Shown here piece after piece: positions 985-42,850 of a stretch of 64,000 bases of DNA (positions within the stretch are counted from its first letter, which is position 1; each line of letters starts with the position of its first letter). Source of the stretch: Candidatus Sulfotelmatobacter kueseliae (GTDB taxonomy: Bacteria > Acidobacteriota > Terriglobia > Terriglobales > Acidobacteriaceae); the NCBI GenBank assembly GCA_900290255.1, contig OMOD01000180.1:1-64000 (forward strand). Direction: 5' to 3'. The notes below the pieces were generated by a model. That model saw only the letters and a list, made by a program, of their open reading frames with translations. It ran no database searches and was not told where the DNA came from. Made by a program: the position numbers and the translations under genes.

Positions 985-1014
985 TTCTGGCGTAACGCGG
1001 AATGGCGTAGAAGG

Positions 1015-2183: not shown

Positions 2184-2198
2184 CAATCTGCAACTTAG

Positions 2199-5340: not shown

Positions 5341-5395
5341 TCTGTCTTTCTTTTTTCGCAACAGATTCGCAACGGGCGCTAACGACTCCCAGTAA

Positions 5396-5746: not shown

Positions 5747-6284
5747 AAAAAATGGAAATAGCCGCGTTTCTCAGCGAGCCGGCCGAAGAGTCCGACGAAG
5801 CCGTGAAGTAAACATGATGTTCCTCACGGATTCACCGGTCCCGCGGCCAAGAACCACGCGTGGCGCTACGGACAACCGCCTTGGACCGAGGCGGACGACG
5901 GAGTCGGTAAACCCTGACTGCGAGACGGAGGGAAGGGCAAATGCCGGTCCTAGAGGGCGCCGGCTTAACGTGACCGGCAATAACTGCAACCAAGCTGAAA
6001 CCAGCCGGCAACCCGCCTAAGGGCAATTGCCCCAGCTCCTGCGGACTGTCCCCTCCAGAGCGTCTCTTTGCCTCCTTGCGGCTGGTTGCCAGACGACGTC
6101 TCTCGATAGATCTGTAAACATCCTTGAATCAACAGGTTGCAATCTTAGCGATTTGGGACTTTGCATTGGTAGAATAGCGGTAGTGAGCAACCTTTTTTGC
6201 CCATCCAGCAGCACGATAACTCCCTTTCTGTCAGTACCTTACAGGCAATGGTGTTAAGAGCCGTCAACCTCCAGGAGGAACAGG
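5747..6284. other. Gene-less stretch, about 540 bp
   Basis: Apart from a 19-codon frame at 5752-5811 (MEIAAFLSEPAEESDEAVK), which may be chance, nothing looks coding. There are short GC-rich inverted runs near 5950-6010. The last 20 bases hold the strong ribosome binding site of the next gene. Confidence 0.45.
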
Positions 6285-6866
6285 ATGAACGAGTGCGACC
6301 AGACCGAACCGTCGCTCCAGCTCAAAATCAACGATACGCTGGCCAAGTCTGTGCGCCTCCGATCTCACCCGGGTGCACCTGGTGACCGCGAGGTTGTTGT
6401 CGAGGATCCTTGGCTGGGCCTCTTCGCGCTCAACAGCCAGTTCGATCTGCTTGTGCGGGAAGCAGGTTCGCCCTGGCGCGCGGTGACCTTGGATGAACTC
6501 CGTGCAATTCTCGCAGCAACCACAGGGTTTCCGGACAAAGCTACAAGCGACCGTCAGACGCCTGGGCCCACGGCGCCTAACGGACCAAATGAATTCGCTG
6601 GAGCGCACCCCAAATTGGTGGGGTTGGGAACGATGACCGGGCTCGATGCATGCCTTCAACGGATTGCAACTCTACTTTATAGGGCTTCCATTCCGCATCT
6701 GAGGGCGGGATCAACCTTCGTCGTTCCATCCATGATGAATGCCCGAGAGTGTTTGTTACGAGCCGGTTTTCACCGGGACGAGCGATACGAGGCTGTCTTG
6801 TTCGATCCCGAGAGGAGAATTGCCATTCGGCTCCTGGAACGCGACCCACGTGTAGTTCTTGGATAA
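6285..6866 (+). CDS. Hypothetical protein, 193 residues
   Basis: GGAGG at 6274-6278 lies 6 nt before the ATG, an almost ideal ribosome binding site, which supports a real gene. The protein has no signal peptide and no membrane segment. The first 90 residues (EDPWLGLFALNSQFDLLVRE, WRAVTLDELRAIL) look like a compact alpha/beta fold. The middle (PGPTAPNGPNEF) is a linker, and the end (HLRAGSTFVVPSMMNAREC, then RLLERDP) is a second short domain. I do not recognise either part. It stands alone between gene-less stretches in the island. Confidence 0.55.
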   Translation: MNECDQTEPSLQLKINDTLAKSVRLRSHPGAPGDREVVVEDPWLGLFALNSQFDLLVREAGSPWRAVTLDELRAILAATTGFPDKATSDRQTPGPTAPNGPNEFAGAHPKLVGLGTMTGLDACLQRIATLLYRASIPHLRAGSTFVVPSMMNARECLLRAGFHRDERYEAVLFDPERRIAIRLLERDPRVVLG

Positions 6867-7398
6867 GAAGCCATTTGGAAGCGCTAGCCAAAGGAGGCAG
6901 CTGATGAAGTCCAGTCACCCTCAAGGATGGGGCGGGCAATCCACAAGGCGTGATCCGAGAATTGGCGGGGGACCAAGAGAGACTCTATGACCGGTCCGGA
7001 AACGCCATCGCCACCTACAGGCGGAACGTTAACTTTACGTTCGACAACAATGGCGTGCGCTTCGGAAGCGGCAACCGGCTGGCAGGCCTGGTCGAAGACG
7101 ACGAGTAGCCGCGCAACCGTAACCGTTGCCCGGTTTTCCCCAAAAGGTCCACGCCGCGAGTCCAGCGTCTGCCAGCCATAGCTTGTAACCCCAACCCCCC
7201 TGCTCTGGAAGCGCGAGCCATAAGGCCCGCCGGCCACCAGAAGCGGCCCAAACCCGGCGCCCCGGCTGGGCGCGCCTGCTTGCGATGGAAAATAACAACT
7301 ACGGAGACCTCTTAATGAGAAAGCACCAGTCCCTTTTGTGATCCCGCAAGGGGGAGACGGGGCTTAATCCAAAGGCTCTCTCGTTAGGGAGAATCTCC
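6867..7398. other. Gene-less stretch, about 530 bp
   Basis: No frame with a good start or convincing codon use. The segment 7180-7270 is GC-rich with short inverted runs (for example CCCCGGCTGGG). GGGAGAA at 7387-7393 belongs to the next gene. Confidence 0.45.
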
Positions 7399-7773
7399 AT
7401 GACGCCAGAAGAAAAACCAATTTGCAACACGAAAGCCAATGCCGAGGGCAACGGGCAAACCCAGCCCCTGCCGACAGGAAAGAAAGCCGAAGACCTGACC
7501 GCCGAGGAATGGGCGGGAATCAATTTTGGGTGGAAAGTCTACGGACTAATCTACGATCTGGAAGCTATGTTGCGGTGTAACCGCCGTGAGCGGAAGCAAC
7601 TGTTACGCTTCGTGGATACCTGTAACGCCGTGCTTGGCGAGGGGTCTTACAAACTCTACCTCGAGGCCGAAGCGGCGAAGAACTTCAAGAATTTCAAGAA
7701 ACGTGACCGTGCGACGAGGTTCGCCATGTTTGAGAAGATGGGGGAGATGATCGACCCGCAAAATCACAAGTAG
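7399..7773 (+). CDS. Hypothetical protein, 124 residues
   Basis: ATG follows GGGAGAA by about 6 nt. The first 35 residues are polar and probably disordered. Residues 36-124 are mostly helical, with LTAEEWAGINFGWKVYGLIYD and RRERKQLLRFVDTCNAVLGEG, and a lysine-rich middle (KNFKNFKKRDRA). No membrane segment, signal or catalytic motif. It is a lone small soluble protein of unknown role in the island. Confidence 0.5.
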   Translation: MTPEEKPICNTKANAEGNGQTQPLPTGKKAEDLTAEEWAGINFGWKVYGLIYDLEAMLRCNRRERKQLLRFVDTCNAVLGEGSYKLYLEAEAAKNFKNFKKRDRATRFAMFEKMGEMIDPQNHK

Positions 7774-8356
7774 CCGTGCGGTTATTTCGGCATAGGGCAT
7801 CCGTGATGGTGTGCTCCGCAGTCGAGTTGGCAGGAAAGCGGCCGACACTTCGCGGAGAGGCTTCTTGCCGAAAATGACTTTGCCGGCTAACGCAGAACTG
7901 CCGCCGCCCGCAGCTATCTGGATCCAGGCTCTGTCTGCCGGCGCGCCCCCGGTAGGTTAACCGTGCAAGCCAAAGCTTGTCTCACCACCGCTCCAGTTCT
8001 CTATCCCCCAGATCAGCCAAAACCTCATCTGCCCGGGGCGTAACTGCGTCGCTGTCTCGATCGGTTGGAGGAGAACTACACCCGGGCGGCTAGGTTGTTC
8101 GGGCGCACCTTCGAGTGAGCCCCAGGCACCTGTTTTCGCCATGACGATCCTGGCGCTATCCGGTTCGCCGCAGGGCTGTCGCTGAAAAGCCGGCTTGCAT
8201 CACGCTGATGGAGGCTCCAGGGAGTCCGTGCCCCGGGCAGGAAGGCATGCTCCTGGACCGTGGGACGCGAACGAGATTGGCAGACGGTAAGACGGTAATT
8301 GTGCCGGCGCGTGAGCGGTCCGCTCCGGCTGCTAAGGCAACGAGATTGGGCCAATG
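7774..8356. other. Gene-less stretch, about 580 bp
   Basis: Frames here are short with poor starts. Nothing recognisable was found until the terminator hairpin at 8357. Confidence 0.45.
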
Positions 8357-8389
8357 AAAAAGGGCGGCGGGGTCACCGCCGCCCTTTTT
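8357..8389. terminator. Bidirectional intrinsic terminator
   Basis: A perfect 14-bp stem (8357-8370 with 8376-8389) around a 5-nt loop: AAAAAGGGCGGCGG pairs with CCGCCGCCCTTTTT. A-tract on one side and T-tract on the other make it work in both directions. It lies 11 bp beyond the stop of the minus-strand gene at 8401. Confidence 0.85.
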
Positions 8390-8400
8390 CGACGTGTCGT

Positions 8401-8679
8401 TTAGACGTGGTAGTAGTTCGTGACGCGGAAGCCTTCGGGGGAGGTGACACCATCAATCCCAAGATCCATGCCCTGACAGGGGCAATCCGTGTCGTGGCAC
8501 TTGCCATACACAAGGCAGCGAATACCCAGCGGCAGGGGAGCCCCTGCCTCTAAATGGGCAGCCCATGCCTCTTCCAGAGCTTCTTGGTGGTTGGAACAGA
8601 AACGCGGGTAAAAGTGAGCACGTTCCCCGATGACGATGGTGACCGTGTACATGTCTTTTTCGTTAGCAGTGTTGCTCAT
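8401..8679 (-). CDS. Hypothetical small protein with Cys/His cluster
   Basis: 92 residues from the ATG at 8679 (MSNTANEKDMYTVTIVIGE), chosen because TGAGAA lies about 7 nt upstream; longer frames to 8691 or 8793 add unlikely sequence. The body has FYPRFCSNHQEALEEAWAAH and GIRCLVYGKCHDTDCPCQG. The C..C-H..D-C-C cluster could bind a metal. I do not know the family. It is a single gene followed by a strong terminator, which supports it being expressed. Confidence 0.6.
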   Translation of the reverse strand: MSNTANEKDMYTVTIVIGERAHFYPRFCSNHQEALEEAWAAHLEAGAPLPLGIRCLVYGKCHDTDCPCQGMDLGIDGVTSPEGFRVTNYYHV

Positions 8680-9592
8680 GTTAGTTCTCATTTCGAAGTG
8701 AAAGTTGACAGAAAGAACGTGACCACATAACAACGTAACCAGGTCCTCAATCTCTAATACCCAAAAATAGGAAAAACCGGACAAGATATTCATTTCTTGG
8801 CGCGCTAGTCTTGCCGGGCTGGTCGGCCGATTTCTAGATGTAGGAGCTCGGAGAGGAGAGTGTGCTCAGCTAGAGAGGATTTCCCCGGAATGGACGGACC
8901 CCTGGAACTGGCTTAGGAGGCCACCCGGGTTTGGTCCTCTGCCGGCAAATGGGCGATCGAGATCCCGGACTGAGTCAGCGTCAGGCCGGTGCGCGCCGAG
9001 CGCGGTGGCCAAACTCGTTCGCCGGCGGAACGAGCTGACATGCCCCAGCTCGGGACCATACTCACGGACCATTCGCCCCCGCCGGAACCCGGCCGGCGCA
9101 GAGTGGATCGGATCGCCTCGAGCGCCTGCAGCTCCGTCGTAAGGGAGAACGAGTTCTGCTGCAGACGCCGCAGAAGGCGGACCCTGCTGAACCGGCACCG
9201 ACTCCCAAGAAGCCACCGCAATCGGACCGAGGCCTCAGCGCAGGGCAAGCGGATTCTACTGTGGCTGACCAAGCCGCTGGAGGCTCCGCGGTGGCGAAGC
9301 CGGCGCCGGTCGCTTGCGAGCAAAGCGTTAAGCGGCCCCCGCTAGACGCCGCCTCGGTCGATCTGGACTGAGGTCCCAGTCCGCTCTTGATATAAGCAGG
9401 GAGCCCCCTGCTTGGCCGCAGAATCTTTCCGGGGCGATGCAGTGGTTCAATGCTTTGACGACGAAGCCAAAGTGCGATCGAAACCAGAACTTTACCTCAA
9501 CCGGCAAAAGCTGCCTGCTCCTCAGCAGGAAGACAGATTCAGGCTCTTGGCCTGGTACCCTGATATGGTAAGGATCGATTCGGAGAGAGGAG
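8680..9592. other. Gene-less stretch, about 910 bp
   Basis: Several overlapping frames exist on both strands between 8866 and 9345, but all are arginine- or proline-rich shadows typical of GC-rich non-coding DNA and none has a ribosome binding site. Possibly decayed genes. No RNA gene recognised. Confidence 0.45.
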
Positions 9593-10216
9593 ATGGGTAT
9601 TCCTCAAAATTCCGTATGGAAAACACGCTTGGTGCAGTGTGGCTTTCCAGATCGTTCGTTCGACATAGAGTTTTGGCAGGAGCAGGGAGACGAGGCCATT
9701 TTTGCTGCGGCATGGGAAATGGTGGAATTAGCTGAGGAAATCAGCCATGGCAGAAAACCCACACTACAGAGAGAACTGCTACAACTCTTAAACGAGTTCG
9801 AGGTTGAATATTTGATCATCGGCGGGTTCGCGGTGATGAAGTACGGAGAGCCGCGTTACACGAAGGATCTCGACGTTTGGGTACACAATTCACCGCAAAA
9901 TTCCCTCCGTGCGGTTGAAGCGCTCAAGAAGTTTGGTGCTCCCCTTGACCATGATGGTGTCACTGCGGAGACATTCGCCGGGAAGCAGGTGGTCTATCAG
10001 ATTGGAATTGCTCCCGTGCGCATCGATATTCTGACCGAAATCACTGGCGTCGAGTTCCCCAATGCATGGAGAAAGAGAGTCGCCAGCACGTTCTTCGGTG
10101 TTCCCGTGCACTTCATATCCCTGGATGACCTTGTAGCTAACAAACACGCTTTGGGCCGCAGCAGCGACCTGAAGGACCTGACGCAGAACCCAAAGCGTGC
10201 CACGCCGGAGAAATAA
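9593..10216 (+). CDS. Nucleotidyltransferase with fused N-terminal small domain
   Basis: 207 residues. Residues about 60-190 are a minimal nucleotidyltransferase of the DUF6036/AbiEii-like type: YLIIGGFAVMKYGEPRYTKD then LDVWV gives the GG...DLD active site, and IAPVRIDILTEITG the third acidic strand. Residues 1-55 (CGFPDRSFDIEFWQEQGD, AIFAAAWEMVELAEE) resemble a small protein that I recall as a separate gene upstream of such transferases, so this is probably a fusion of two usual neighbours. Such enzymes act in toxin-antitoxin or defence pairs by modifying RNA or protein. The end (TQNPKRATPEK) departs from the family and may be altered. GGAGAGAGG lies just before the ATG. Confidence 0.75.
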   Translation: MGIPQNSVWKTRLVQCGFPDRSFDIEFWQEQGDEAIFAAAWEMVELAEEISHGRKPTLQRELLQLLNEFEVEYLIIGGFAVMKYGEPRYTKDLDVWVHNSPQNSLRAVEALKKFGAPLDHDGVTAETFAGKQVVYQIGIAPVRIDILTEITGVEFPNAWRKRVASTFFGVPVHFISLDDLVANKHALGRSSDLKDLTQNPKRATPEK

Positions 10217-10288
10217 CCCGGCAAGACAAGTGGTTCCGAGGTTCGTGAACCCATAGCTTCCGTTGGCAGTGAAGGGTGTCTATCTAAT

Positions 10289-10543
10289 ATGAAGCCGAAC
10301 AAAATCCTGAAAGACCTTATCCTTGAAGTCGTCAATGATCAGCTCAGCAGTGGGGAGCCGCCCGAGACTAGGGCAACGTACCATCGTCTGGTGAAAGATG
10401 GAATCGAAGAGCAGGAAGCAAAGCGGCTGATCGCGTGTGTGCTGGCTAGCGAACTTTTCGATGTTATGAAATCGCAGCGGCCGTACGATCATGATCGGTA
10501 TGCTAAAGCCCTTAATCGCCTGCCCGAATTGCCATGGGAGTAA
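10289..10543 (+). CDS. Conserved small protein of unknown function
   Basis: 84 residues: MKPNKILKDLILEVVNDQL, PPETRATYHRLVKDG, EEQEAKRLIACVLASELFDV and YAKALNRLPELPWE. This all-helical pattern ending in LNRLP is one I have seen in many bacteria without assigned function. It follows the nucleotidyltransferase by 72 bp on the same strand and may share its transcript. No clear ribosome binding site is visible. No catalytic motif. Confidence 0.65.
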   Translation: MKPNKILKDLILEVVNDQLSSGEPPETRATYHRLVKDGIEEQEAKRLIACVLASELFDVMKSQRPYDHDRYAKALNRLPELPWE

Positions 10544-10547
10544 ATAT

Positions 10548-10596
10548 CCTCCGGCAAAGCCGGAGGCTTTACGGTTGCTGGCCCCTCAAAGGGGCC
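10548..10596. repeat. Two tandem perfect hairpins (terminator or REP-like)
   Basis: CCTCCGGC-AAA-GCCGGAGG (10548-10566) then, 13 bp on, GGCCCCT-CAA-AGGGGCC (10580-10596). The first is followed by CTTT and starts 5 nt after the stop of the preceding gene, so it may end transcription. Paired hairpins of this kind also mark REP and IS200/IS605 ends; no transposase is nearby. Confidence 0.5.
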
Positions 10597-10882
10597 TGAT
10601 CGCAGCCGATTAAAGTCAAAATCCCAAGCTTTCAAACGTTCAGAAAAGAATGGGAGTCCGTCCCGCTCCTCTCAGCACAGGAGATCCCTCTCGGGTCTTC
10701 TCATCGCAGGAAGAAAACCCACTCCCGTATCTGTCAAACTTTTCGTGCCTACCCGGCAGAGCCGGGGGAACTCCCTAAGTATTAGAACAATAGACCAGCT
10801 GCGGATCCAGAGCCAGAAGCACCCTCCGGTTCATCAGGGTAGCGGCGTGTAGATGGGATATATAGAAGCAATAAATAATGTA
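10597..10882. other. Gene-less stretch before tacA
   Basis: AT-richer than its surroundings, with no coding frame. It ends in the tacA promoter. Confidence 0.5.
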
Positions 10883-10922
10883 TTCACATTGTACGCACAA
10901 TGATGTACAGTATTTGTGCGTA
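10883..10922 (+). promoter_or_regulatory. tacAT promoter with inverted-repeat operator
   Basis: TTCACA (10883-10888), 17 bp, TACAGT (10906-10911). A perfect 9-bp inverted repeat, TACGCACAA (10892-10900) and TTGTGCGTA (10914-10922), embraces the -10 box with a 13-bp gap. Ribbon-helix-helix antitoxins bind such sites, so autoregulation is likely but inferred. Confidence 0.55.
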
Positions 10923-10938
10923 GGAAAGGGGTTTACGA

Positions 10939-11253
10939 ATGCCGGCAACGGGAATAAGGACCGGGAAGAAGCGCGACGAGAACATCAACCTGCGTGCCAG
11001 TCAGAGCCAGAAGGCCCTGATTGACCGGGCGGCGGATGCGCTTGGGAGGAACCGGTCGGATTTCATGCTCGGGACGGCGTGCCGGGAAGCGGAAGCAGTT
11101 CTACTCGACCGTCGGTATTTCGCTTTGCCCCGCGAGGAATTCAAGCGCTTTACGGCGATGCTGGACAAACCGCGGGCCAGCGATGCGAGGCTGCGACGAC
11201 TGCTTAAGACTAAAGCGCCATGGGAGCAACGAGCCGGAGCAACCAGCCGCTGA
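10939..11253 (+). CDS. tacA: DUF1778 ribbon-helix-helix antitoxin (TacA-like)
   Basis: 104 residues. KKRDENINLRASQSQKALIDRA then ALGRNRSDFMLGTACREAE is the DUF1778 signature: an N-terminal ribbon-helix-helix DNA-binding unit (about 10-55) and a helical toxin-neutralising tail (FALPREEFKRFTAMLD). It pairs with the GNAT toxin whose start lies inside this gene, overlapping by 34 nt. AGGAAAGGGG precedes the ATG by 7 nt. It should repress the operon through the inverted repeat over the promoter. Confidence 0.92.
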   Translation: MPATGIRTGKKRDENINLRASQSQKALIDRAADALGRNRSDFMLGTACREAEAVLLDRRYFALPREEFKRFTAMLDKPRASDARLRRLLKTKAPWEQRAGATSR

Positions 11254-11753
11254 GTGCACCGGAGAAACTGCGCGCAGATCACAACCTGGAGGGATTCGAG
11301 TGTGGCGAGCCATCGCTGGACGAATGGCTGCGTCGGCGAGCGCTGCAGAACGAGGAAAGTGGCGCTTCGCGTACCTATGTGGTATGCGCTGGACAACAGG
11401 TGGTCGGCTGTTATGCCCTTGCCGTGGGTGCTGTAGCACACGCGCATGCGCCGGGTCGTGTTCGGCGTAACATGCCGGATCCGGTGCCAGTCATGGTCAT
11501 CGGCCGGCTGGCTGTCCATCAGAACTATCAGGGTAAGAAGATCGGGCCAGGTCTCCTGCGTGATGGCATATTGCGCACCTTGCAAGCTGCGGATATCGCC
11601 GGGATCCGCGCGATTCTGGTGCACGCGATTTCGGAGCGGGCACGGCAGTTCTATGAGGAGTGTGGGTTCATTGCCTCGCCGATGGACCAGATGACGCTGA
11701 TGATTACAGTATCGGAAGCTGTCAAGGCATTTGTTGGAAAGGGTGCGAAGTAA
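11220..11753 (+). CDS. tacT: GNAT acetyltransferase toxin (TacT-like)
   Basis: 177 residues. The typical N-terminus LSAPEKLRADHNLEGFECGE then PSLDEWLRRRAL is followed by the acetyl-CoA site VIGRLAVHQNYQGKKIGPGLL and the catalytic-tyrosine region ARQFYEECGF. TacT enzymes acetylate the amino group of aminoacyl-tRNA and stop translation; TacA blocks this. The ATG at 11220 gives a 34-nt overlap with tacA, longer than usual; a CTG at 11250 just before the conserved start is an alternative. All key motifs look intact. Confidence 0.9.
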   Translation: MGATSRSNQPLSAPEKLRADHNLEGFECGEPSLDEWLRRRALQNEESGASRTYVVCAGQQVVGCYALAVGAVAHAHAPGRVRRNMPDPVPVMVIGRLAVHQNYQGKKIGPGLLRDGILRTLQAADIAGIRAILVHAISERARQFYEECGFIASPMDQMTLMITVSEAVKAFVGKGAK

Positions 11754-12023
11754 CTCAAACTTCTGTTCCCCAGTTCCGGTCGATTTTATAAGCCATCAGT
11801 TACTGCGGGCTTTTGCGGTAATGAGAAAAGTTAACCCGCAAGGTGGTGCGCACACATGGCCCCCCAGGAAAGTAACTGTTCTCCTGAATCGGATGAAATC
11901 GTACGGGTCGTCGTAGTTGGGATGTCGGACAATCAGTCTGGAGACGTGGAAGCTTCGGCAGCTGGTACGGCCACTCACGCAAAGGGGCTTCGTACGCGCT
12001 TTGGCAACTGGGATCGCGATGAC

Positions 12024-12407
12024 CTACACGCGGGTGAGCTGAGGGAGTACCTCAAAGTGCGTGTCACGGGCAAACAGGACAAGCGAATGTTGCAGGACGA
12101 GGGCTGCGATCCACATATCATTCGTCGGAATGGGGGTGCCTTGCTTACGCAGTTGCCGGTAAATGGCAGCGTAATGATGCGTGGTCTGCTCGTCGGCATA
12201 GAGCACACCGACGCCGGACTTCAGGAGAAAACGTCGCAGGACAGCTTCGTTCCTTGGTCCCTGGCTGCCCGCAGCGAAACCAGCGCGCAATTCTCCTAAC
12301 ACAATGAACGGCAACCAGACCTGTTCGGCGAGCTCGACTGTCTCGACCACGGATACATCGCCCCGGCAAAGGTCGGTGTAACGGTTCGTGTCGAGCGCCA
12401 GCCTCAC
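12024..12407 (-). CDS. vapC: VapC-type PIN-domain toxin
   Basis: 127 residues from GTG at 12407 (MRLALDTNRYTDLCRGD). I chose this start because it overlaps the antitoxin stop as GTGA and has AAGGGA 8 nt upstream; a GTG two codons earlier (12413) is the alternative. The PIN acidic residues are LALDTN, FIVLGELRAGF, NDMWIAAL and FARDTHF. It should be an RNA-cleaving toxin. The family differs from the other three here (LDTNRYTDL, LGELRAG type). Confidence 0.9.
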   Translation of the reverse strand: MRLALDTNRYTDLCRGDVSVVETVELAEQVWLPFIVLGELRAGFAAGSQGPRNEAVLRRFLLKSGVGVLYADEQTTHHYAAIYRQLRKQGTPIPTNDMWIAALVLQHSLVLFARDTHFEVLPQLTRV

Positions 12408-12646
12408 CGCCACATCCCTTCGTCAACGGTATCTTGCGCAGCCCTGGCCTCGTCGAAAGCGGGATCTTTGCGCCAAGTGCCTGCGATGTCGCTTAGATCG
12501 CGCTGCCGGCCGCATTCCCCGGTAACGCCAGCACCCCGGGCCAGGGCCTCAATGGCTACTTCGTTGAGACTCTTGCCCTGCTCACGGGCAGCGCGGCGAA
12601 GAGCTTCATCCAGAGTATCTGGCACGTTGCGGATCGTGTATTGCAT
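12404..12646 (-). CDS. vapB: FitA/VapB-type ribbon-helix-helix antitoxin
   Basis: 80 residues from ATG at 12646: MQYTIRNVPDTLDEALRRAA then REQGKSLNEVAIEALARG is the Arc-like DNA-binding fold of FitA/VapB antitoxins, and the C-terminus (DIAGTWRKDPAFDEA) would bind the toxin. A longer frame to 12688 adds unlikely residues through the promoter. TACAAT (12658-12653) with TTGCAT 17 bp upstream ends 6 nt before the ATG, predicting a leaderless mRNA. The 9-bp direct repeat GCCTACAAT occurs twice in tandem over the -10 (12670-12653). Confidence 0.88.
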   Translation of the reverse strand: MQYTIRNVPDTLDEALRRAAREQGKSLNEVAIEALARGAGVTGECGRQRDLSDIAGTWRKDPAFDEARAAQDTVDEGMWR

Positions 12647-12652
12647 GCATCT

Positions 12653-12681
12653 ATTGTAGGCATTGTAGGCGACGAATGCAA
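12653..12681 (-). promoter_or_regulatory. Candidate vapB promoter with tandem GCCTACAAT
   Basis: -35-like TTGCAT (12681-12676), 17 bp, -10 TACAAT (12658-12653). Two adjacent copies of GCCTACAAT give a second TACAAT at 12667-12662. The start codon follows after 6 nt. Confidence 0.45.
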
Positions 12682-13337
12682 GCAGCACTTTGGTCCAACT
12701 GCGATCCCCGTAGTTGCAACGCGCGATCTAACCGTATTCGGCGCCAGTCATCGGCGGCGCTGCTAACACGAACTGATTGAGTTCTGCGCTAGCTGGAGGT
12801 GGGATGTGAACGCTATGTGCGGCGGCGCCCGGTCGCGTGCAGACGCCGGTCACATACAGCGCTGCAAATTCCCGTCAGAAGGCCACGCCAACCTCATTCG
12901 CACCGAGATGGAGGGTATTCGCAGATGGCATATGCATGATAGGAATATGCCATATGCTCTGGACGATCTGAGTAAGACGTATGACATATCGGTCGCCAGC
13001 GGTGACCTCCTGTATCTAGACGGAAAATCGTATCTAACTCATTCCGGGCTGCTCGGAATAGCACGCCGTAAGCGCTGCTTCGGAATCCAGTTCTGCCCTG
13101 CCACTAACATACGCAACGTCGAGCGCATGCAACGCACCGCTGGTGGACAAGCCCCTCTTCCAGTGCGGTGTCGAAGAAACCATGGCTTCGGACTGCGACC
13201 AGATCATATGGCGGCGAAAAATAGGTGTCGAATCTACCGCGGAATTCAATGACCTGCGAGCTTCTCGTCACTCGTGATCGTAAGGGGTTATGCTCCGCGA
13301 TGCTGTTGAGCGGGAGGTGAGCATTTTCCATTACGCC
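12682..13337. other. Stretch without intact gene; possible PIN relics
   Basis: Two faint pieces look like PIN debris. On the minus strand (about 13040-13190) LSTSGALHALDVAYVSGRAE then SEQPGM resembles the DALHvA...EkPG end of a PIN family, with a frameshift upstream (FFDTALEEGL in another frame). On the plus strand (about 12955-13025) ALDDLSKTYDISVASGDLLYL resembles a VapC tail. Neither has a full domain. Confidence 0.3.
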
Positions 13338-13432
13338 TTGCCAGCTTGTAAAAAGTAAGGGATAATACAGACGTAAGGATATGCATCAGTGTAAGGAGAT
13401 CGCGATGCTACACTCTACAGTGACGAGTAAGG
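13338..13432 (+). promoter_or_regulatory. vapB promoter with phased GTAAGG repeats
   Basis: TTGCCA (13338-13343), 17 bp, GATAAT (13361-13366). GTAAGG starts at 13355, 13373, 13391 and 13427, all in 18-bp register (one step empty). The third overlaps the ribosome binding site. The fourth lies in the conserved TSKG codons and may be coding coincidence. It is likely an operator array for the AbrB-type antitoxin (inferred). Confidence 0.55.
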
Positions 13433-13650
13433 GACAAACGACCATTCCCGAGAAAATTCGAAAGGCTTTGCGGATCAAGCCGGGCGACAAGTTGGAATAT
13501 GAAGTGGAGGGAGAACGAGCTACCATTCGTGTTCATCCGGGCATTCGGTCACTCAAAGGCGTGCTCGCCAGCAACAAGGGGAAGGGGATGTCTTTCGCTG
13601 AAATCCGCGAGGCCGCTGCTGAGGCTGCGCGTCATGAGGATAGTCGGTGA
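13405..13650 (+). CDS. vapB: AbrB-type antitoxin
   Basis: 81 residues from ATG at 13405, preceded by AAGGAG at 13393-13398. MLHSTVTSKGQTTIPEKIRK then GDKLEYEVEGERATIRV is the SpoVT/AbrB fold; the C-terminus (SLKGVLASNKGKGMSFAEIR) is the toxin-binding arm. Its stop overlaps the toxin start as GTGA. Unlike the other antitoxin genes here, its leader of about 30 nt carries a normal ribosome binding site. Confidence 0.9.
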   Translation: MLHSTVTSKGQTTIPEKIRKALRIKPGDKLEYEVEGERATIRVHPGIRSLKGVLASNKGKGMSFAEIREAAAEAARHEDSR

Positions 13651-14054
13651 GCAAGCAAAGACTTATCGACACTAATCTTATTGTCCGCTATTTGGTGCAG
13701 GACCATGACAAGCACGCCAGAGCAGCTGGGAGGCTGTTCGACGCCTGTGATCGGGGCGATGTGTCAGTTGTGGTGTTGCCGGTCGTTTTGGCAGAGTGTG
13801 TGTTTGTGCTCGAGTCTTTTTACGGGCATCCACGCAGCGATATCGCCTCCGCACTCGGGCACTTGATCTCGAGTCCCGGCGTCGAGATCAGTGAGGTAAC
13901 GGTCCACCTCGATGCTCTGAATCGCTATAAGGGAACGAAGGCTCACTTTGTCGACTGTCTGATCGCTGCCACCGCCGTGGCTAAGAACGTGCCAGTCTCC
14001 ACCTTTGATCAGGACTTTCGAAGGTTTCTTGACGTGCGAGTGGAAACTGAATAG
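13647..14054 (+). CDS. vapC: VapC-type PIN-domain toxin
   Basis: 135 residues from a GTG start that overlaps the antitoxin stop by 4 nt. PIN residues: RLIDTNLIVRYL, VLAECVFVLE, HFVDCLIAATA and STFDQDFRRF. It belongs to the group with AbrB antitoxins and is predicted to be an RNase. All four acidic positions are present, so it should be active unless neutralised. Confidence 0.9.
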   Translation: MSKQRLIDTNLIVRYLVQDHDKHARAAGRLFDACDRGDVSVVVLPVVLAECVFVLESFYGHPRSDIASALGHLISSPGVEISEVTVHLDALNRYKGTKAHFVDCLIAATAVAKNVPVSTFDQDFRRFLDVRVETE

Positions 14055-14086
14055 TTGCGAGCGCAACCAACTTGGGAAAGCAATTG

Positions 14087-14115
14087 TTGACATGTTAGTA
14101 ACATGAAAGTATGCT
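14087..14115 (+). promoter_or_regulatory. Strong vapB promoter with palindrome in spacer
   Basis: Consensus TTGACA (14087-14092), 17 bp, TATGCT (14110-14115), then ATG at 14122. The perfect palindrome CATGTTA-G-TAACATG (14091-14105) fills most of the spacer, as expected for an operator where the antitoxin blocks polymerase. The expected RNA start falls on or next to the A of the ATG. Confidence 0.65.
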
Positions 14116-14121
14116 TTGAGC

Positions 14122-14352
14122 ATGTCCAAGATGATTCAGCTTCGTAATGTACCCGATGCCCTACATCGTGGTCTGAAAGCTCGCGCTGCCCTGGCAGGTA
14201 TGTCGCTTTCGGACTATTTGTTAGCTGAGATCAAAGAAATCGCGGAGAGGCCAACGCTCACAGAATTACGGGAGCGGCTGCACAAACGTAAGCCGGTTAC
14301 AGCGCGGATCGAGACCGCCCGCCTGGTGCGAGAAGAGCGCGAGGCCCGATGA
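14122..14352 (+). CDS. vapB: FitA/VapB-type ribbon-helix-helix antitoxin
   Basis: 76 residues from ATG at 14122 (a TTG at 14116 is less likely). MSKMIQLRNVPDALHRGLKA then AALAGMSLSDYLLAEI is the FitA-like DNA-binding fold, and RLHKRKPVTARIETARLVRE the toxin-binding tail. The stop overlaps the toxin start as ATGA. A consensus promoter ends 6 nt before the start codon and no ribosome binding site is possible, so a leaderless transcript is predicted. Confidence 0.9.
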   Translation: MSKMIQLRNVPDALHRGLKARAALAGMSLSDYLLAEIKEIAERPTLTELRERLHKRKPVTARIETARLVREEREAR

Positions 14353-14741
14353 TCGTCCTGGATGCGTCTGCCGCAGTTGACTGGCTCCTTCAGACATCTG
14401 CGGGTCGGCGCATCGACAAGCGAATTTGTTCGGGCAACGAAACCCTGCACGCGCCTCACCTCCTAGATCTCGAGGTCATGCAGGTATTAAGGCGTTTAGC
14501 ATTGCAGGGAGTGGTCTCTGTACGACGTGCTGATGAGGCGGTCCGTGATCTGTTGGATCTCCGTCTTACTCGGTATCCTCATCTCGTGTTTCTACCCCGC
14601 ATTTGGCAACTCCGTCACAATTGTTCTGCCTATGACGCTGCCTACATCGTGCTTGCCGAGCAACTCGGAGCTACGTTGATTACAAGGGATGCTCGACTCG
14701 CTTCTGCTTCGGGTCATACGGCACTCGTCGAGCTCTTCTGA
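14349..14741 (+). CDS. vapC: VapC-type PIN-domain toxin
   Basis: 130 residues. MIVLDASAAVDWLL carries the first acidic residue, LLDLEVMQVLRRL the glutamate, SAYDAAYIVLAEQL the third and LITRDARLA the fourth. It is a canonical VapC, translationally coupled to its antitoxin. Codons for IDKRICSGNETL (14412-14447) recur as a relic at 945-984, so a related vapC was once present there. Confidence 0.92.
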   Translation: MIVLDASAAVDWLLQTSAGRRIDKRICSGNETLHAPHLLDLEVMQVLRRLALQGVVSVRRADEAVRDLLDLRLTRYPHLVFLPRIWQLRHNCSAYDAAYIVLAEQLGATLITRDARLASASGHTALVELF

Positions 14742-14979
14742 TTTTGCCTACCTCCATCGCACACATACGTTGCTCATGCCCGTTAACCTTGTGAACCATT
14801 TCTTGCGTAGTGTAATGAAAGAGAAAAGACTTTTCGTGTTAGGAACCGAGAATGAGCTTGCAAAATTGGCTTCAGAATAGTTTGGTTGATGGAGGTTTCT
14901 TGATGTCGCCAGGGCTTGTTGTGTGCTCTTCCTATTACCGAGCAATCTGCCCTTAACATGGCGGCGGCGGCGAAGGGCA

Positions 14980-15128
14980 AAGTGTTGCGGATACCAATGA
15001 GCGCTTGCCCAAGCGCCGGGCGCGGCATTCCCTCCGAACACCTCGCGCATGGCTTTCGGGGTTGTAGCTAGCTTCTGTTCTAGGAGCACGTCCCCCGTTT
15101 CGTCCAACACGCAATACCAACTCGATGG
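14980..15128 (-). pseudogene. IS110-family transposase fragment
   Basis: In the minus strand SSWYCVLDETGDVLLEQKLA then TTPKAMREVFG matches the N-terminal DEDD-transposase segment of IS110 elements. After this the frame shifts (remnants of the next helix are seen in another frame), and the conserved catalytic and serine regions are absent. The first few residues are missing where it meets the inositol-monophosphatase remnant at about 15125. Confidence 0.6.
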
Positions 15129-15367
15129 TTTCTGCCGGGCTGGCCGACGTGACCTTCACCCTCGTGCCGAAGCATGAGTGGGACGTAGCTGCCGGCTCGG
15201 CGCTGGTCCTTTCCGCGGGAGGATTCGTTTGCCGACCCGATGCCTCCGACTTGCGCTGCAATCAAAAGAATCCCTTGCTCCCCGGTTTGCTGGCAGGAGG
15301 GCCGCTTCTGGGAGAAGAACTCCTCGCGGCAGTCCATCAAGCGGTTCTCACCAAACGAACCCAATAA
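15125..15367 (+). pseudogene. Inositol monophosphatase-family (CysQ-like) C-terminal remnant
   Basis: SAGLADVTFTLVPKHEWDVA then AGSALVLSAGGFV is the WDvAAg..lv..AGG metal-binding motif of the inositol monophosphatase/CysQ superfamily. It continues NQKNPLLPGLLAGGP to a stop near the expected C-terminus. The N-terminal two thirds, including the first metal site, are gone; an IS110 fragment lies exactly at the break. Confidence 0.6.
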
Positions 15368-15445
15368 GTCGTTTGTTTGCGATATCGAAGCTATGAGCCA
15401 CAAGAAAGAGCCAGAGTCCAAAAGGCTTCGAAACCACCTGGTTTG

Positions 15446-16693
15446 ATGAACTGGGGGCAGAGGAATGCGAGCTTAGGACAAAGAGGATTGACTCCGGCCA
15501 GGAAGGCGCTTGCCCAACATCTCCGGCTTCCGGCACCGACCGACTTCGTGTCACCAGCGCTTTCAAATAGCGCCGTCGGGACTCTGTGGCGGACCGTCGC
15601 GCTTGATCTGTCGGCGGCCGCGTCTGCAGCCGCTGCCTTTCGCGTCATGACTGAGCCCATGCTGGCCGCGGCCGCTCGCCGCCAGCCGCATGCCGCCGAT
15701 GCCGTACTCATTGACTCCAACGAGAATCCGCTTGGCCCCAGCCAGGCCGCGCGCGAGGCGATGGAGGCCATTCTCCCGCAGGGCGGCCGCTACTCCGACA
15801 ATCTCACCGATGATCTCGCCGGCACTTTCGCTCAGATGGAAGGCCTCAATCCTGACTATGTTCGCGTCACCGTCGGCTCGACTCCTCCGCTGGCCCTTGC
15901 CGTTTTGGCCTTCACCTCGCCACAGAGAAGCTACGTCGCCGCCGATCCCGTATTTGAGTTGGGCGGGAATCTAGCCTCGAAAGTGGGAGTGCGCGTGGTT
16001 GGCGTCCCACTTACCAAGACATACGCGCATGACGTCAAGGCCATGCTGGCCGCCGCTCCCGACGCCGGCGTCTTTTACATCTGCAATCCGAATAACCCCA
16101 CGGGCACGCTGACCCCGCATGAGGACATCGAGTATCTGGCCGCGAACAAACCGAAAGATTCGATCGTTCTGGTGGATGAAGCCTACATCCACCTTTGCGA
16201 CGCGCCCTCCACACTCGATCTGGTGAAGGCGGGCAAGGATGTGGTCGTGCTGCGCACCTTCTCGAAGGTGTACGGCATGGCCGGTTTGCGCTGCGGACTG
16301 CTGATTGCCCGGCCCGACCTGTCCGACAAAGTCTTGGCGCGCGGCGGATGGAACTTCATGCCTATCACCGCCGTCGCGGCCGCCACGGCCAGCCTGAAGG
16401 ACCCGCAACTGGTTCCGGAACGGCGGCGCATCAACGCCGGCGTTCGCCAGCGGACCTTCGATTGGCTTGACCGCAACGGCTACGCTTACATTCCTTCCGA
16501 GTCGAACTGCTTCATGCTCCAGACCAAGCGGCCAGGCAAAGATGTGCGCGACGCCATGGCCAAGGAAAATGTTCTGATCGGGCGGACCTGGCCGGTGATG
16601 CCCACGTACGTCCGCATCACCGTCGGCACGGAGGATGAGATGGAACGCTTCCAGGCCGCATTCCATAAGGTGATGAAGGCGAGCGCTGGCTAG
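15446..16693 (+). CDS. HisC-like pyridoxal-phosphate aminotransferase, damaged Tat signal
   Basis: 415 residues from ATG 15446; conserved sequence starts near residue 82 ([14 protein letters not shown]). Fold-type I aminotransferase with [21 protein letters not shown] and the lysine motif [14 protein letters not shown], close to histidinol-phosphate aminotransferases. Just before it, [19 protein letters not shown] looks like the hydrophobic part of a twin-arginine signal, and the adjacent frame encodes RRRDS, so a single indel near 15580 may have split a Tat signal. The true start is uncertain: 15446, 15647, or lost. It borders the island, so the 5' end may have been remodelled. Confidence 0.75.
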
Positions 16694-33571: not shown

Positions 33572-34519
33572 TCACACGTTGAACCACGGCGTAATCCAAA
33601 CGTACTTGATGTGCCACAAAAGGCGCAGGCCCATCTTGATCGGCAGGGCAACCATGGTCAGCAGAAAGAACTGCATAATGGAAAACTGCAGCAGGCTCAT
33701 TCGCCGGAAATCCTTCGCCATGCGGCGCCGGAACAGCGAGTACACCATCCCGCCGCCCAGCAGGTAGTACCCGCCCACGACGATCGCGCCGAAAACTCCC
33801 TTCGCCCAATTGGAGGTGATCGGGCCACCCAGCCAGCGCGGAACTTCGTCCGGCAAGTCGCGGTTCACCTCATAGATCAAGCGGTTGTGATCCCAGGTCT
33901 GGCCGGGCCAGAACCACTGCCATCCCGGACCACGAATGAATGTGCCAATCATGATCATTGAGACCCACAGAATGATGAAGCCAAAAAGAAACGTCGAAAT
34001 CGAGAAGCGCCGCTGCTTCCACGTGTAATATCCGCCGCCCAGCGGATTGGTATCAATGTAGGGGATCACCATCAGCCCGATGATGATCATGGTCGGCATG
34101 ACTACGCCGGCGATCCACGGATCGAAATAAACCAGCATTTCCTGCAGCCCGAGAAAGTACCACGGCGCTTTCGCCGGATTCATCGTCAGGTTGGGATTCG
34201 CAGGTTCTTCCAGCGGAGCGTTCAGCGTGATCGACCAGATCATCAGAATGATGGTGACGATGATCGCGCCTAGAAATTCAATGCGCAGCAGAAACGGCCA
34301 GACATGCACTTCCTTCTGCCAGCCGGGTTTGAAGGGCCAGGTCTTGCGATGATGCGTCTTGGCCATTTCCGGATCGGCCTCAAGCTGCTCGATCAACTGG
34401 TCGTTGGCCCGCGCCTGCTTCACCGCCAGATAAATGTAGAAGGCAAGCAGCGGCATCAAGCCCACGATGGGCACGTTGTCCGGGGCCGAGCAAATTTCCC
34501 AAAGTTGTCGCCAATCCAT
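33572..34519 (-). CDS. Cytochrome b C-terminal half (subunit IV-like)
   Basis: 315 residues from ATG 34519 (GGAGAA 6 nt upstream). A frame continuing to 34651 is only translated repeat sequence. It starts with a membrane helix (VGLMPLLAFYIYLAVKQ), then the cytochrome b C-domain: FKPGWQKEVHVWPFLLRIEF, NPAKAPWYFLGLQEMLVYF (PEWY-like PWYF motif at the quinol site), MIIIGLMVIPYIDTNPLGGG. Several further helices follow. It completes the quinol oxidation site with the N-half encoded upstream. Confidence 0.9.
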   Translation of the reverse strand: MDWRQLWEICSAPDNVPIVGLMPLLAFYIYLAVKQARANDQLIEQLEADPEMAKTHHRKTWPFKPGWQKEVHVWPFLLRIEFLGAIIVTIILMIWSITLNAPLEEPANPNLTMNPAKAPWYFLGLQEMLVYFDPWIAGVVMPTMIIIGLMVIPYIDTNPLGGGYYTWKQRRFSISTFLFGFIILWVSMIMIGTFIRGPGWQWFWPGQTWDHNRLIYEVNRDLPDEVPRWLGGPITSNWAKGVFGAIVVGGYYLLGGGMVYSLFRRRMAKDFRRMSLLQFSIMQFFLLTMVALPIKMGLRLLWHIKYVWITPWFNV

Positions 34520-34540
34520 AGATTCTCCAACAACCATGTA

Positions 34541-34648
34541 GCGACAGCCGCCCTCGGCTGTCGGGCCGGGCAGAGCCCGGCAAGTTGCACGCCCCAAAAG
34601 AAACCGTCGAGCTTCGCTCGACCGGACATCCGAGGGCGGCTGTCCCCA
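34541..34648. repeat. Palindromic element, GACAGCCGCCCTCGG type (A1)
   Basis: A 108-bp element with 15-bp terminal inverted repeats (GACAGCCGCCCTCGG at 34543-34557, complement at 34630-34644). Three perfect inner hairpins lie at 34542-34563, 34565-34581 and 34606-34622. It separates the two cytochrome b genes. Kin lie inside metH and ubiD. Confidence 0.85.
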
Positions 34649-34659
34649 CACAAGACTTC

Positions 34660-39261: not shown

Positions 39262-42200
39262 CTACACCACGAAATACTTCGCCCCCGGATGGTGCACAAC
39301 GATCGCCGAAGTGGACTGCTCCGGCTCCAGCAGAAACGCAGAAGTCAGCCGCACGCCGATATTCTCCTCTGGTCTCAGCAGCGCGAACAGCTTGGTCTGA
39401 TCCTCCAGGTTGGGGCACGAAGGATAGCCAAACGAGTACCTCGATCCACGATACTTCTGGTGAAACAGATCGCGAATCTCCGGCGCATCCTCGCCCGCGA
39501 TCCCCAATTCCTCGCGCATTTTCTTATGATGCAATTCCGCCAGCGCTTCCGCAGTCTCCACGCTCAGCCCGTGCAGGTAGAGATATTTCGTGTACTCCCC
39601 GCCTTCAAACAACCGCTGCGTCTCGATCGTCGCCTTCGGTCCAATGGTGACCAGCGACAACCCGATCACATCCATCTTCCCCGAGGCCTTGGGCGCGAAG
39701 AAATCCGAGATGCAGAGCCGCCGGCCTTCCTTTTGGCGGGGAAAGGTGAAACGCAGCAACTCACGTGTGGGGACAGCCGCCCCCGGCTGTCCGGCCGAGC
39801 GCAAGCTCGGCTCGCGGGCAGGAGTGCCCGGGCCACATGGGCCTGGTTCATACACAACCACATCATTCCCGTCACTCTGGGCAGGGAAGTACGCGTACAC
39901 TGCTTTGGGCTCAAACAATCCCGAACCTGCAACCTCGTCCTCGAGCCCCCGCAGGATCGGCCGGAACTTCTCCTCCACCAGCCGCACATAGTCTGCCTGC
40001 GAAGCCGTCTTCAACTGCCACTGATTCTTGAACAGCGCCGTCTCGTTGATGTAACGAAAGACTTCGCGCAGATCATAGTCCGTACGCACACGGACGCCCC
40101 AGAACGCAGGCGCCGGAATGTTGGGAGCGTCGCCCACCACCGGGCTTCGTTCCGCGAACACCGGCCCGGTTTCTTCATCCACGGCCGCAGCCTTGGCGTA
40201 GTCCTTTACTGTTCGTCCTTCGCGCAGCCGAGCCTCGCGGGCGCTGTTCTCCGTCGCCAAATCCTCCATGATGTGCAGTCCGGCAAAAGCATCATCGGCG
40301 TAGAAGACGGCATTGGCGTACTCCCGCCGCAAATCGTCCTCGACATACTTGCGCGTCAGCGCTGCTCCGCCGCAGATCACGGGGAACTCCAGCTTCTGAC
40401 GCTCCAGATCCTGGATCACATACTTCATCTCCAGCGTGGACTTCACCAGCAGCCCGCTCAGACCAATCGCATCCGCCTCATGCTCCTGCGCCGCGCGGAT
40501 GATCGCATCCCCCGGCTGCTTGATCCCTAAATTGATGACCTTGAATCCATTGTTCGAGAGAATGATGTCAACCAGATTCTTCCCGATATCGTGCACGTCG
40601 CCTTTCACCGTGGCGAGAACAATCGTACCCTTCTGCGATGCGGCCTTCTTCTCCATCTTCGGCTCAAGATAGGCCACCGCCTGCTTCATCACGCCCGCCG
40701 AATCGAGCACGGAGGGCAGCTGCATCTTGCGCGCGCCGAACAGATCGCCGACCGTCTTCATGCCATCGAGCAGAACGGTATTAATCAACTCGAGCGGGGA
40801 GTAACTTGCGAGAGCTTCTTCCAGCAATGCTTCGAGCGATTTCTTATTCGCGCCTGCGCCCACGGATTTTTCGCCGTTGATGATGGCAAATTTCAACTTG
40901 TCCTCGACCGAAAGCGTATCCACGTGCGCGGTGGTCGAGGCCGCCGGCTTACCCTTCAGGCCGGCGAAATGTGCCATATAGTTCTGCAGCGGGTCGCCCG
41001 CCGACGCATCGCGGTAGATCAGTTTGCGCGCAAATTCCACTTCTTGCTGCGGAATCTTGTACAGCGGATAAATCTTCGTGTAGTTCACGATGGCCATGTC
41101 AAGCCCGTGGTCTACCGCCTCGTGCATGAACACTGAATTCAACACGCGCCGCGGATACGCATCCAGGCCGAACGAAATATTGCTCACGCCCAGGATCGTC
41201 TTCACCGTTGGCAATTCTTTCTTGATCCGCTCGACTGCCTTGAGCGTCTCCATCCCGGCCGTCCGGTACTCTTCTTGTCCGGTCGAAATCGGCAGAGTCA
41301 GTGCATCAAAAATCAGGTCGGTGCCGTCGAGACCATACTTTCTGGTCGCTAAATCAAAGATTCGGTGCGCGATGGCAACCTTCTTATCCACGGTCAGCGC
41401 CATGCCTTCTTCGTCAATGGTCAGCGCGATTACAGCCGCGCCATAGCGCTTGGCCATGGGCAGAACTTTCGAGGTTCGCTTCTCGCCATCTTCCAGATTG
41501 ATCGAGTTGATGATGGCTCGCCCGGGGATGCGCTTGAGGGCTTCTTCCACCACGTCGGCTTCGGTCGAATCCACCAGAATCGGAGCCGGCACGCGCGTGG
41601 CAATCTTTTCGAGGATGGAAGTCATATATCCCTTCTCATCCTCGCCCACAATGGCGCAGCACAAATCCAGCATGTGCGAACCGTTGTTCACCAGCCTTTT
41701 CGCCAGCGCCAGAATCTCGTCGTTCTTCTTCGCCCGTACCAGGTTCCGGAAATGCTCCACGCGCGTGGTCGTGTTCATTTCCTCGGCGACGATCAGCGGT
41801 TTAGGCTCCAGATCAAGCGGGACCGAACTGTACGCGCTGGACGCGGCCCCTACGCGCTTCACGTCGCGCTTCGCCGGCTCGACGCCCGACACAGCCTCGA
41901 CCACCGCCTTCAGATGCTCGGGCGATGTGCCGCAGCATCCACCGACGACGCGCACGCCGTAGTCGGCGACAAAGTGCTTGTGATAGCTCGCCAGTTCCTC
42001 TGGCTTGAGCTTGTAGACGGCGCGCCCGCCCTCGTTCTGCGGCAGCCCGGCATTGGGCAGAACCGAAACGTGCTTGGTCGAGTTCGCTCCCAGGAAGCGC
42101 ACCGCATCGTTCATCTCGACGGGGCCGGTAGCACAGTTCAGTCCGATGATGTCCACGTCGTAGGGTTCGAGCGCGGTCAGAGCGGCGCCGATTTCGGTGC

Positions 42201-42798
42201 CCAAAAGCATCGTCCCCGTAGCTTCAAGTGTTACTTGAACTGTCACCGGAAGCCGCTTGCCCGCATTGCGCATCGCGTCGAACACGCCAGCCAGCGCCGC
42301 CTTGGCTTGCAGCAGGTCTTGCGAAGTCTCGATCAGGAGCACATCCACGCCGCCCTCGATCAACGCCGCCGCCTGCTCTTCGTACCCGGCCGCCATGGCA
42401 TCGAACGTAATGTGCCCCAGAGACGGTAGCTTGGTCGTCGGCCCGATCGATCCCGCGACGAATCGCAGCTTGTCCTTGCTGGAGTACTGCTGCGCCACTT
42501 CCCGGGCCAGGCGTGCGGCCACCAGATTCAGCTCCGCGACTTTGTCCTGCAGGTCATATTCGGCCAGCACGACGCGTGTCGCCCCAAACGTGTTGGTCTC
42601 AACCACATCGCAACCGACCTGGAAGAAGGAAGCGTGAATGTCTTTGATGATGTCTGGCCGGCTCAACACCAGCAGTTCGTTGCAGCCTTCTTTGCCCCAG
42701 AAATCGTCCACACTGGGATTGCGGACCTGAATGTTGGTCCCCATGGCGCCGTCATAAATCACGACGCGCTCGTTCACGGTTTGTAGGAAATCAGTCAT
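39262..42798 (-). CDS. metH: Cobalamin-dependent methionine synthase
   Basis: 1178 residues. Domains: homocysteine-binding barrel (1-310; zinc cysteines in [13 protein letters not shown]), pterin-binding barrel (about 345-620), cobalamin-binding (about 650-890; DVHDIGKNL supplies the axial histidine near 736) and AdoMet activation domain (about 890-1178). It methylates homocysteine from methyl-tetrahydrofolate. Within the activation domain, residues about 983-1012 ([20 protein letters not shown] and following) are translated palindromic repeat inserted in frame, flanked by normal VVVYE and LLRFTFPRQ. Whether activity survives is unknown. Confidence 0.95.
39771..39830. repeat. Palindromic element inside metH (A2)
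   Basis: Three consecutive perfect hairpins: 9-bp stem at 39771-39792, 6-bp stem with GCAA loop at 39795-39810, 6-bp stem at 39815-39830. Same order and GGACAGCCG...CGGCTGTCC word as the intergenic element A1. It lies fully inside the metH frame. Confidence 0.85.
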
Positions 42799-42808
42799 TG
42801 AAAGATCG

Positions 42809-42850
42809 TCATTCGTCGTTGGTCATTCGTCGTTGGTCGTTCGTCGTTGG
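42809..42850. repeat. 14-bp tandem repeat, three copies
   Basis: TCATTCGTCGTTGG at 42809 and 42823, and TCGTTCGTCGTTGG at 42837, head to tail, directly upstream of metH (ATG at 42798). Confidence 0.85.

Follow-up and report, generated by a model that had tools for sequence, protein, structure and literature searches.

Intragenic REP sequences in a variable loop of the methionine synthase MetH in a genus of Acidobacteria

Introduction

REPs take their name from lying outside genes, and the RPEs of Rickettsia are palindromic repeats that lie in frame within unrelated proteins. The metH gene in a 64,000-nucleotide stretch of DNA from Candidatus Sulfotelmatobacter kueseliae (the window, at its full length) raises the question of how palindromic repeats come to be carried within the reading frame of a housekeeping enzyme. 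A sequence-only reading had reported there a palindromic element at 39763-39850, composed of three consecutive hairpins whose words recur between genes, and had likened it to the Rickettsia elements. The explanation preferred here, with a probability of about 0.8, is that two resident repeats, designated REP-A and REP-B, landed in a β-hairpin turn of the MetH activation domain and are tolerated there in an exposed loop. The following features of the window are central to the argument.

39262-42798, minus strand: metH, cobalamin-dependent methionine synthase of 1178 aa and host of the insert (TIGR02082, 1230.2 bits, cut-off 1011)
39754-39849, minus strand: MetH loop, metH residues 984-1015, a recurrent insertion site between the strands VVVY and RFTFPRQ (alignment of 79 MetH genes)
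39766-39811, minus strand: REP-A copy with stems at 39771-39792 (9 bp) and 39794-39811 (7 bp) and a GTGG end at 39767-39770
39813-39837, minus strand: REP-B copy, the third hairpin, with a stem at 39815-39830 (6 bp), encoding CGPGTPAR(E)
34538-34649, no strand assigned: inverted REP-A pair with inner hairpins, BIME-like and intergenic (DNA fold z of -6.30 and -6.62)

The Insert in metH

The metH gene is intact, with an open frame over its full length in which the insert is kept, and a profile search placed Pfam domains along it, including Met_synt_B12 at residues 909-1178; together with the TIGR02082 score, this bears out the earlier view that normal MetH lies on both sides of the insert. A palindromic insert in frame was also correctly recognized, but its repeat-derived part is shorter than proposed, covering 39766-39837 (72 nt, 24 codons, frame kept). 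All three of the consecutive hairpins described were found. They do not form one element: hairpins 1 and 2 constitute REP-A and hairpin 3 is a copy of REP-B (one mismatch). A single three-hairpin element was rejected because the two families differ in their copy sets and in their RAYT neighbours. As DNA, the 88-base stretch originally delimited folds with z of -4.47 (plus strand) and -4.19 (minus strand), and none of 200 shuffles was equally stable on either strand.

The activation domain was modelled with AlphaFold2 from 37 rows, comprising the window and 36 of 54 usable loci, at a mean pLDDT of 72 and a pTM of 0.73. Domain residues 96-114 (metH 989-1007), inside the insert, have pLDDT below 50 and lie between predicted strands at 86-90 and 120-125; three more short segments of the modelled domain also have pLDDT below 50. 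The model fits an insert that forms a flexible turn, with low pLDDT reflecting missing homologous columns as well.

A plasmid collection searched with metH gave no match, and an Rfam search of the window gave none at gathering level. Directly upstream of metH, at 42806-42850, lies a 7/14-bp tandem array with the units GTCGTTG and GTCATTCGTCGTTG; heptad arrays of unlike sequence are also found within the MetH loop of relatives.

REP-A and REP-B in the Genome and Genus

The core pattern of REP-A has 135 matches with up to three mismatches in the 5.39-Mb assembly and REP-B has 53 at the same tolerance, with no match for either reversed pattern. A blastn search with the metH stretch returned at least 45 matches, itself included (40 of 185 candidates scored), most of which span roughly query positions 3-49. 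From the 135 REP-A matches, 105 distinct copies were fetched and examined, leaving about 30. Two stems and a CCCCACA(T/C) end delimit their unit, and the flanks further out are near-random; the search pattern preselected the core positions but not the second stem or the last bases. The variable base at position 21 yields GTGG in 90 copies and GTAG in the other 15.

These properties are those of GTAG-class REPs. Both families are high-copy palindromes of the short kind (20-40 bp) typical of the class, REP-A carries GTAG or a close variant at the foot of its stem, and its copies appear to lie mostly outside genes, with an inverted pair at 34538-34649. The recurrence of the hairpin word between genes was read correctly from the window: the pair, which lies between two cytochrome b-type genes (named from the look of their translations), has the word at 34544-34561 and, as an inverted copy with one mismatch, at 34626-34643. 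In the window the first hairpin word has four matches with up to three mismatches, where shuffles average 0.25; the match at 30250, with three mismatches, is of no evident kind. The first-start ORF of the cytochrome b-type gene at 33572-34651 (likewise named from its look) traverses the REP pair. As the codon model confines its coding part to ~33575-34486, automatic start calls may translate the pair.

All 45 genus genomes searched contain REP-A, at 2 to 165 copies each, with a reversed control of 0. In a class-wide search of 121 genomes, using a longer pattern with one mismatch allowed, it occurred only in two members of the genus and in none of the 119 genomes outside it. The notion that REP-A is shaped for coding, having no stop in six frames, was considered and judged weak, since 78% of stem-keeping shuffles and 29% of plain shuffles are also free of stops; by form, GTAG copies have one six-frame stop and GTGG copies none.

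RAYT Genes

RAYTs are HuH/tyrosine single-strand transposases. Eleven Y1_Tnp matches were found in the genome, ten of them above the Pfam cut-off, and each of the two families in metH flanks a cognate gene. Four REP-A copies, all of the GTAG form, lie around the RAYT gene at C1:38400 (L121 1745-2341), which scores 80.1 bits against NF047646, the NCBIfam model of REP-associated tyrosine transposases, barely over its cut-off of 80; one of these copies is within the 5' part of the first-start ORF. REP-B copies lie around a RAYT-like gene at C147:96835 (L130 1728-2243; Pfam Y1_Tnp). The reading frame of this latter gene ends inside a REP-B copy, so that its C-terminus, CGAGTPAREN, is nearly the peptide of the MetH insert.

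Other RAYT-like genes (L125, L127, L128 and L132) have repeated hairpins of their own nearby, such as GGGCGGACGCCCTCGTCCGCCC and CGCAGCGCTTCAGCGCTGCG, and the genome may hold many REP/RAYT pairs. Beside the C1 RAYT gene, a YegS-type lipid kinase gene (L121 2346-3485) bears an in-frame segment within its C-terminal domain that is related to REP-A and was missed by the core pattern.

The MetH Loop Across Relatives

The nearest relatives are acidobacteria. Eighty MetH genes were fetched, two of which gave no loop (L112, with no C-terminal anchor, and L117, with an unmatched left anchor), and the remaining 78 plus the window provided 79 loops of 9-57 residues. No other insertion site in the MetH alignment comes near this loop in width: its main gap block, 51 columns wide, is occupied in 53 of 79 rows, and any block outside the loop that exceeds 8 columns is occupied in three rows at most. 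Among 72 rows, several of which are cut or broken at their ends, the standard deviation of length is 11.0 for the loop and 12.1 for the rest of MetH, and loop length correlates with total length at 0.66; that the remainder varies as well speaks against a simple picture.

The contents of the loop vary widely and include REP-A, a GACGG variant of REP-A, the GGCGGGACGCCGGCGCTAC family, REP-B-like sequences, HEGHEG-type repeats, heptad arrays and a repeat with GTCGAAGGG or its complement. Named modules supported by independent evidence, defined strictly as a match of at least 18 nt, a stem of at least 8 bp or a tandem pair, are present in 31 of 79 loops under seven labels, two of which are variants of one core. 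Five further loops have repeat evidence without a named module, and 43 have no repeat evidence.

Each loop was compared with 20 windows of equal length from the same gene. Judged by the longest match to non-metH DNA, 20 of 79 loops beat all their controls, and judged by hairpin stem 20 of 79 did so; the effect resides in the longer loops. At 26 aa and above, 13 of 20 loops exceeded their controls by match and 11 of 20 by stem; the corresponding figures were 6 and 7 of 23 for loops of 18-25 aa and 1 and 2 of 24 for those of 13-17 aa, and none of the 12 loops of 12 aa or less did so, no excess being visible among the shorter loops. The match pool was rich in REP-A loci from the window's genome, which favours detection of REP-A, but the controls were drawn against the same pool.

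For the loops tested, the repeats are the residents' own. The loop DNA of L044 has at least 55 other matches in its own genome (40 of 122 candidates scored), and because most of these fall within positions 7-61 of 75, its outer bases are not repeated; that of L066 has at least 39 (40 of 122 candidates scored). The insert of the relative L047 is identical to that of the window at 50 of 50 consecutive bases, while the remaining metH is 79.5% identical. An old, conserved MetH loop with unrelated codons, the result that was to have told against a mobile repeat, did not emerge from the alignment with close relatives, and this candidate was rejected on that alignment and on the L047 identity. What is supported is that variability at this loop is old in the clade, the site being filled with different repeats in different species. 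The identity with L047, at the same position and in the same orientation, need not reflect a fresh insertion; the insert could have been retained, exchanged between species or drawn to a preferred target.

Turnover of Loop Contents and its Possible Causes

The loop columns were removed, a MetH tree was built from the rest of the alignment (IQ-TREE quick, LG+G4, SH-aLRT support alone), and loop contents were mapped on this tree by parsimony, which counts gains and losses alike as state changes and cannot separate them. With strict labels (31 of 79 loops) there were 33 changes, compared with a shuffled mean of 35.2 and values as low in 10 of 200 shuffles. The presence or absence of a repeat tracks kinship, with 19 changes against 26.5 in shuffles and none of 500 shuffles that low. 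The kind of repeat shows hardly any such signal, each named kind listed requiring about as many changes as when shuffled. REP types alone, in 21 loops, account for 18 changes. Looser labels (41 of 79 loops, 35 changes; shuffled mean 39.7, 0 of 200 as low) were set aside in favour of the strict ones because they rested partly on short matches, as in L075, L081 and L084; under them, too, repeat presence clusters by kinship and the individual kinds do not.

In the clade most distant on the tree, none of the 15 rows has a named module, and the loops are 10-17 aa long. Near and within the window's genus, the loop is often repeat-bearing and the kind differs by species. The sisters L057 and L062 (support 100, 87.0% identical outside the loop) have, respectively, a 41-aa loop with a GACGGG repeat and a 10-aa loop with none; L071, with REP-A and REP-B, and its sister L049, with a HEGHEG-type repeat under the loose labels only, are 89.7% identical in the rest of the gene.

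Several processes other than insertion into a tolerant loop might produce this pattern. Loop contents might change through recombination between dispersed copies or gene exchange between species, without transposition, as could be read from the 50 identical bases shared with L047 amid a metH that otherwise differs by 20.5%, and from the more than 100 similar copies in the genome. This account leaves the first entry of a repeat into an empty loop unexplained, and the heptad repeats likewise, and the same families are found around RAYT genes; it is regarded as rather unlikely. The loop might instead be a DNA hot spot, where a RAYT cuts at a preferred short target and the protein plays a minor part. 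In the MetH loops of the window, L041, L047, L055 and L071, REP-A indeed has a common orientation and a common place beside an ELL motif, and available sections of a study of TnpA-REP describe the enzyme cutting at CT or CA beside REPs, possibly guided by the tetranucleotide (PMC8266576). A preferred target is nevertheless improbable, as L114 carries REP-A in the opposite orientation, the flanks of the 105 genomic copies reveal little except a weak CACA(T/C)G end, and hairpin-free heptad arrays and HEGHEG-type repeats occupy the same loop. Because such hairpin-free repeats share the site, tolerance by the protein explains it better than the target of one enzyme.

REP-A in Other Genes

A codon model trained on the genome itself served to score the flanks of the 105 REP-A copies, and the frames were then read. 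At least 13 copies lie in frame in recognizable genes, with the following hosts.

MetH: one copy
M28/PSMA-like peptidase: one copy
MnmE C105: two inserts
MnmE C71: one copy
UvrD: two inserts
Molybdopterin oxidoreductase: one copy
PgeF-type laccase-domain protein: one copy
Oligopeptide ABC ATPase: one copy
2-oxoacid dehydrogenase E2: one copy
Lhr: one copy
ParB: one copy

The count is a lower bound, since only 11 of the 27 distinct open ORFs through REP-A copies were run against Pfam, chosen for flanks resembling known proteins; L005, scored as coding on both sides, was outside this test. With a flat threshold, nine copies have coding sequence in a single frame on either side, eight of which are among the 13, and no copy has flanks that both code on the same strand but in differing frames. 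The in-gene share of 12%, again a lower bound, compares with a coding fraction of about 76% that the codon model assigns to the window, so that genes seem to be avoided, being hit less than random scatter would give. Within the window, coding calls by this model are weak and patchy at 1-15500 relative to the rest.

Comparison with solved structures was most informative for MnmE, where alignment with 1xzp leaves a clean 20-residue gap at the insert. The alignments of the ABC ATPase and UvrD break at the inserts, and the peptidase is a less clean case because the aligned chain is only 8 residues shorter at the insert. For PgeF the structural alignment begins past the insert, and for MetH it ends before the loop.

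The genome-wide hairpin search and the tabulation of in-gene copies that the sequence-only reading had proposed thus agree with its central claim: copies throughout the genome, relatives and other in-gene copies all support a dispersed palindromic repeat in frame in metH. The in-gene copies also bear on whether the insert is selected, either because mRNA hairpins slow translation or regulate metH or because the peptide tunes the activation domain. Its folds are stable, and four of the 13 in-gene copies (in the peptidase, one UvrD copy, the molybdopterin oxidoreductase and E2) lie between two Pfam domains, where pausing could aid folding. Yet both orientations and five of six frames are in use among these copies, sister species bear unrelated peptides and DNA, including hairpin-free repeats, at the MetH site, and L062, L120 and L087 manage with loops of 9-10 residues, all of which makes selection for the insert very improbable.

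MnmE, which is unrelated to MetH, likewise takes repeats, probably at two sites. At site 1, after FGEL and before IDEVVV, different species of the genus have different repeats; site 2, also variable, precedes TSALTGEGI. The sample comprised loci from the best matches of 30 of the 45 genomes plus L200, of which 29 of 31 gave a site-1 segment. Against 20 controls each, 14 of these 29 segments stood out by match, 15 by hairpin, 17 by either and 12 by neither. The window's assembly contains two mnmE genes (C71 and C105; L209 and L200) that are 75% identical and have REP-A at the same site in opposite orientations, and both are among the 29 segments. With assembly contamination estimated at 8.46%, one mnmE may belong to a close relative; the pair may reflect contamination or two lineages. 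Such a pair would also be the argument for regarding the metH insert as an artefact of assembly or binning, an explanation that can practically be discounted, as the separate assembly of L047 has the same metH insert with 50 identical bases and others have comparable inserts.

Insertion into tolerant loops remains the preferred reading, and its proposed course is as follows. REP elements would have spread in the genus, probably via RAYT, or by recombination between copies, and most insertions in coding positions would have been removed by selection. In-frame insertions in loops may be nearly neutral because they leave the fold undisturbed, and the few exposed loops and linkers that tolerate them would for that reason be filled and refilled. 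We infer that the metH segment is translated and that its movement was RAYT-driven; the segment would be a disordered surface stretch with no function of its own. The broader proposition, that throughout the genus REPs and other intergenic repeats keep entering, eroding and being replaced in the same exposed enzyme loops (that of MetH and two in MnmE, with UvrD and others as possible further cases), is given an even chance.

Relation to Known Repeats

Intragenic REPs of the GTAG and CGTC classes were described in 2013 by Di Nocera et al. in Opitutus terrae, Thauera, R. conorii and others, and the accessible portion of that paper reports them as most numerous in O. terrae and R. conorii, with more than half being dimers or groups that encode 20-30 residues (PMC3733652). 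The same portion notes different REPs at about one site in recB of two Xanthomonas species (PMC3733652). In its available text, known GTAG-class REPs resemble REP-A and REP-B as short, GC-rich palindromes of high copy number with a GTAG/GTGG end, and also in their inverted pairs, the flanking of RAYT by copies and the presence of some copies in genes in frame. REP-A differs in having been found only in one acidobacterial genus and in that most copies end in GTGG; the portion seen gives a GTGG majority for GTAG-20 of O. terrae (PMC3733652). A further difference is that, across dozens of species, one MetH loop holds repeats under seven labels, and MnmE behaves similarly.

The parallel with Rickettsia holds in that REP-A, like the RPEs, is palindromic and present in frame within genes for unrelated proteins, but it is not the only one, as the same partly available source documents in-gene REPs in other phyla too (PMC3733652). 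The RPEs belong to a different phylum, and REP-A has RAYT genes with copies around them, differences that set the two apart by description only; the available text also calls RPE-1 longer (PMC3733652). RU-1 to RU-3 of enterobacteria, as described in the part of PMC2759123 at hand, are likewise small mobile repeats that supply codons and are found intragenically, with units of 103-168 bp as opposed to the 25-46 nt REPs in a recurrent loop site here. The TIRYT genes of K. versatilis, T. saanensis, A. capsulatum and G. mallensis, like the RAYT genes of this study, encode tyrosine transposases of Acidobacteria, yet according to the accessible text they are flanked by long inverted repeats and not by REPs (PMC3733652). 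High-copy structures near class 3 tnpA genes, about 600 of them in Solibacter usitatus, are recorded in excerpts of PMC6006769.

The available part of PMC3733652 makes no mention of in-gene REPs in Acidobacteria, and a literature search, with most subscription journals outside its scope, found neither an account of them nor anything judged closer than that paper. Given the intragenic REPs of other phyla and the RPEs of Rickettsia, the kind of phenomenon is already known; what is new is its occurrence in Acidobacteria and the finding that one housekeeping-enzyme loop shows turnover of unrelated repeats.

Implications

Repeat-filled loops can mislead alignments and gene models. Because unrelated repeat families share one protein loop across species, the tolerance of the site for insertions can be read from genomes alone, and the MetH loop amounts to a naturally repeated experiment on the absorption of inserted DNA by a protein. 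It offers a testable system for how short noncoding DNA turns into protein sequence. If the broader proposition is true, the repeats would supply new loop sequence continually and across the proteome, with every loop serving as a natural insertion-tolerance assay that has run independently in dozens of species.
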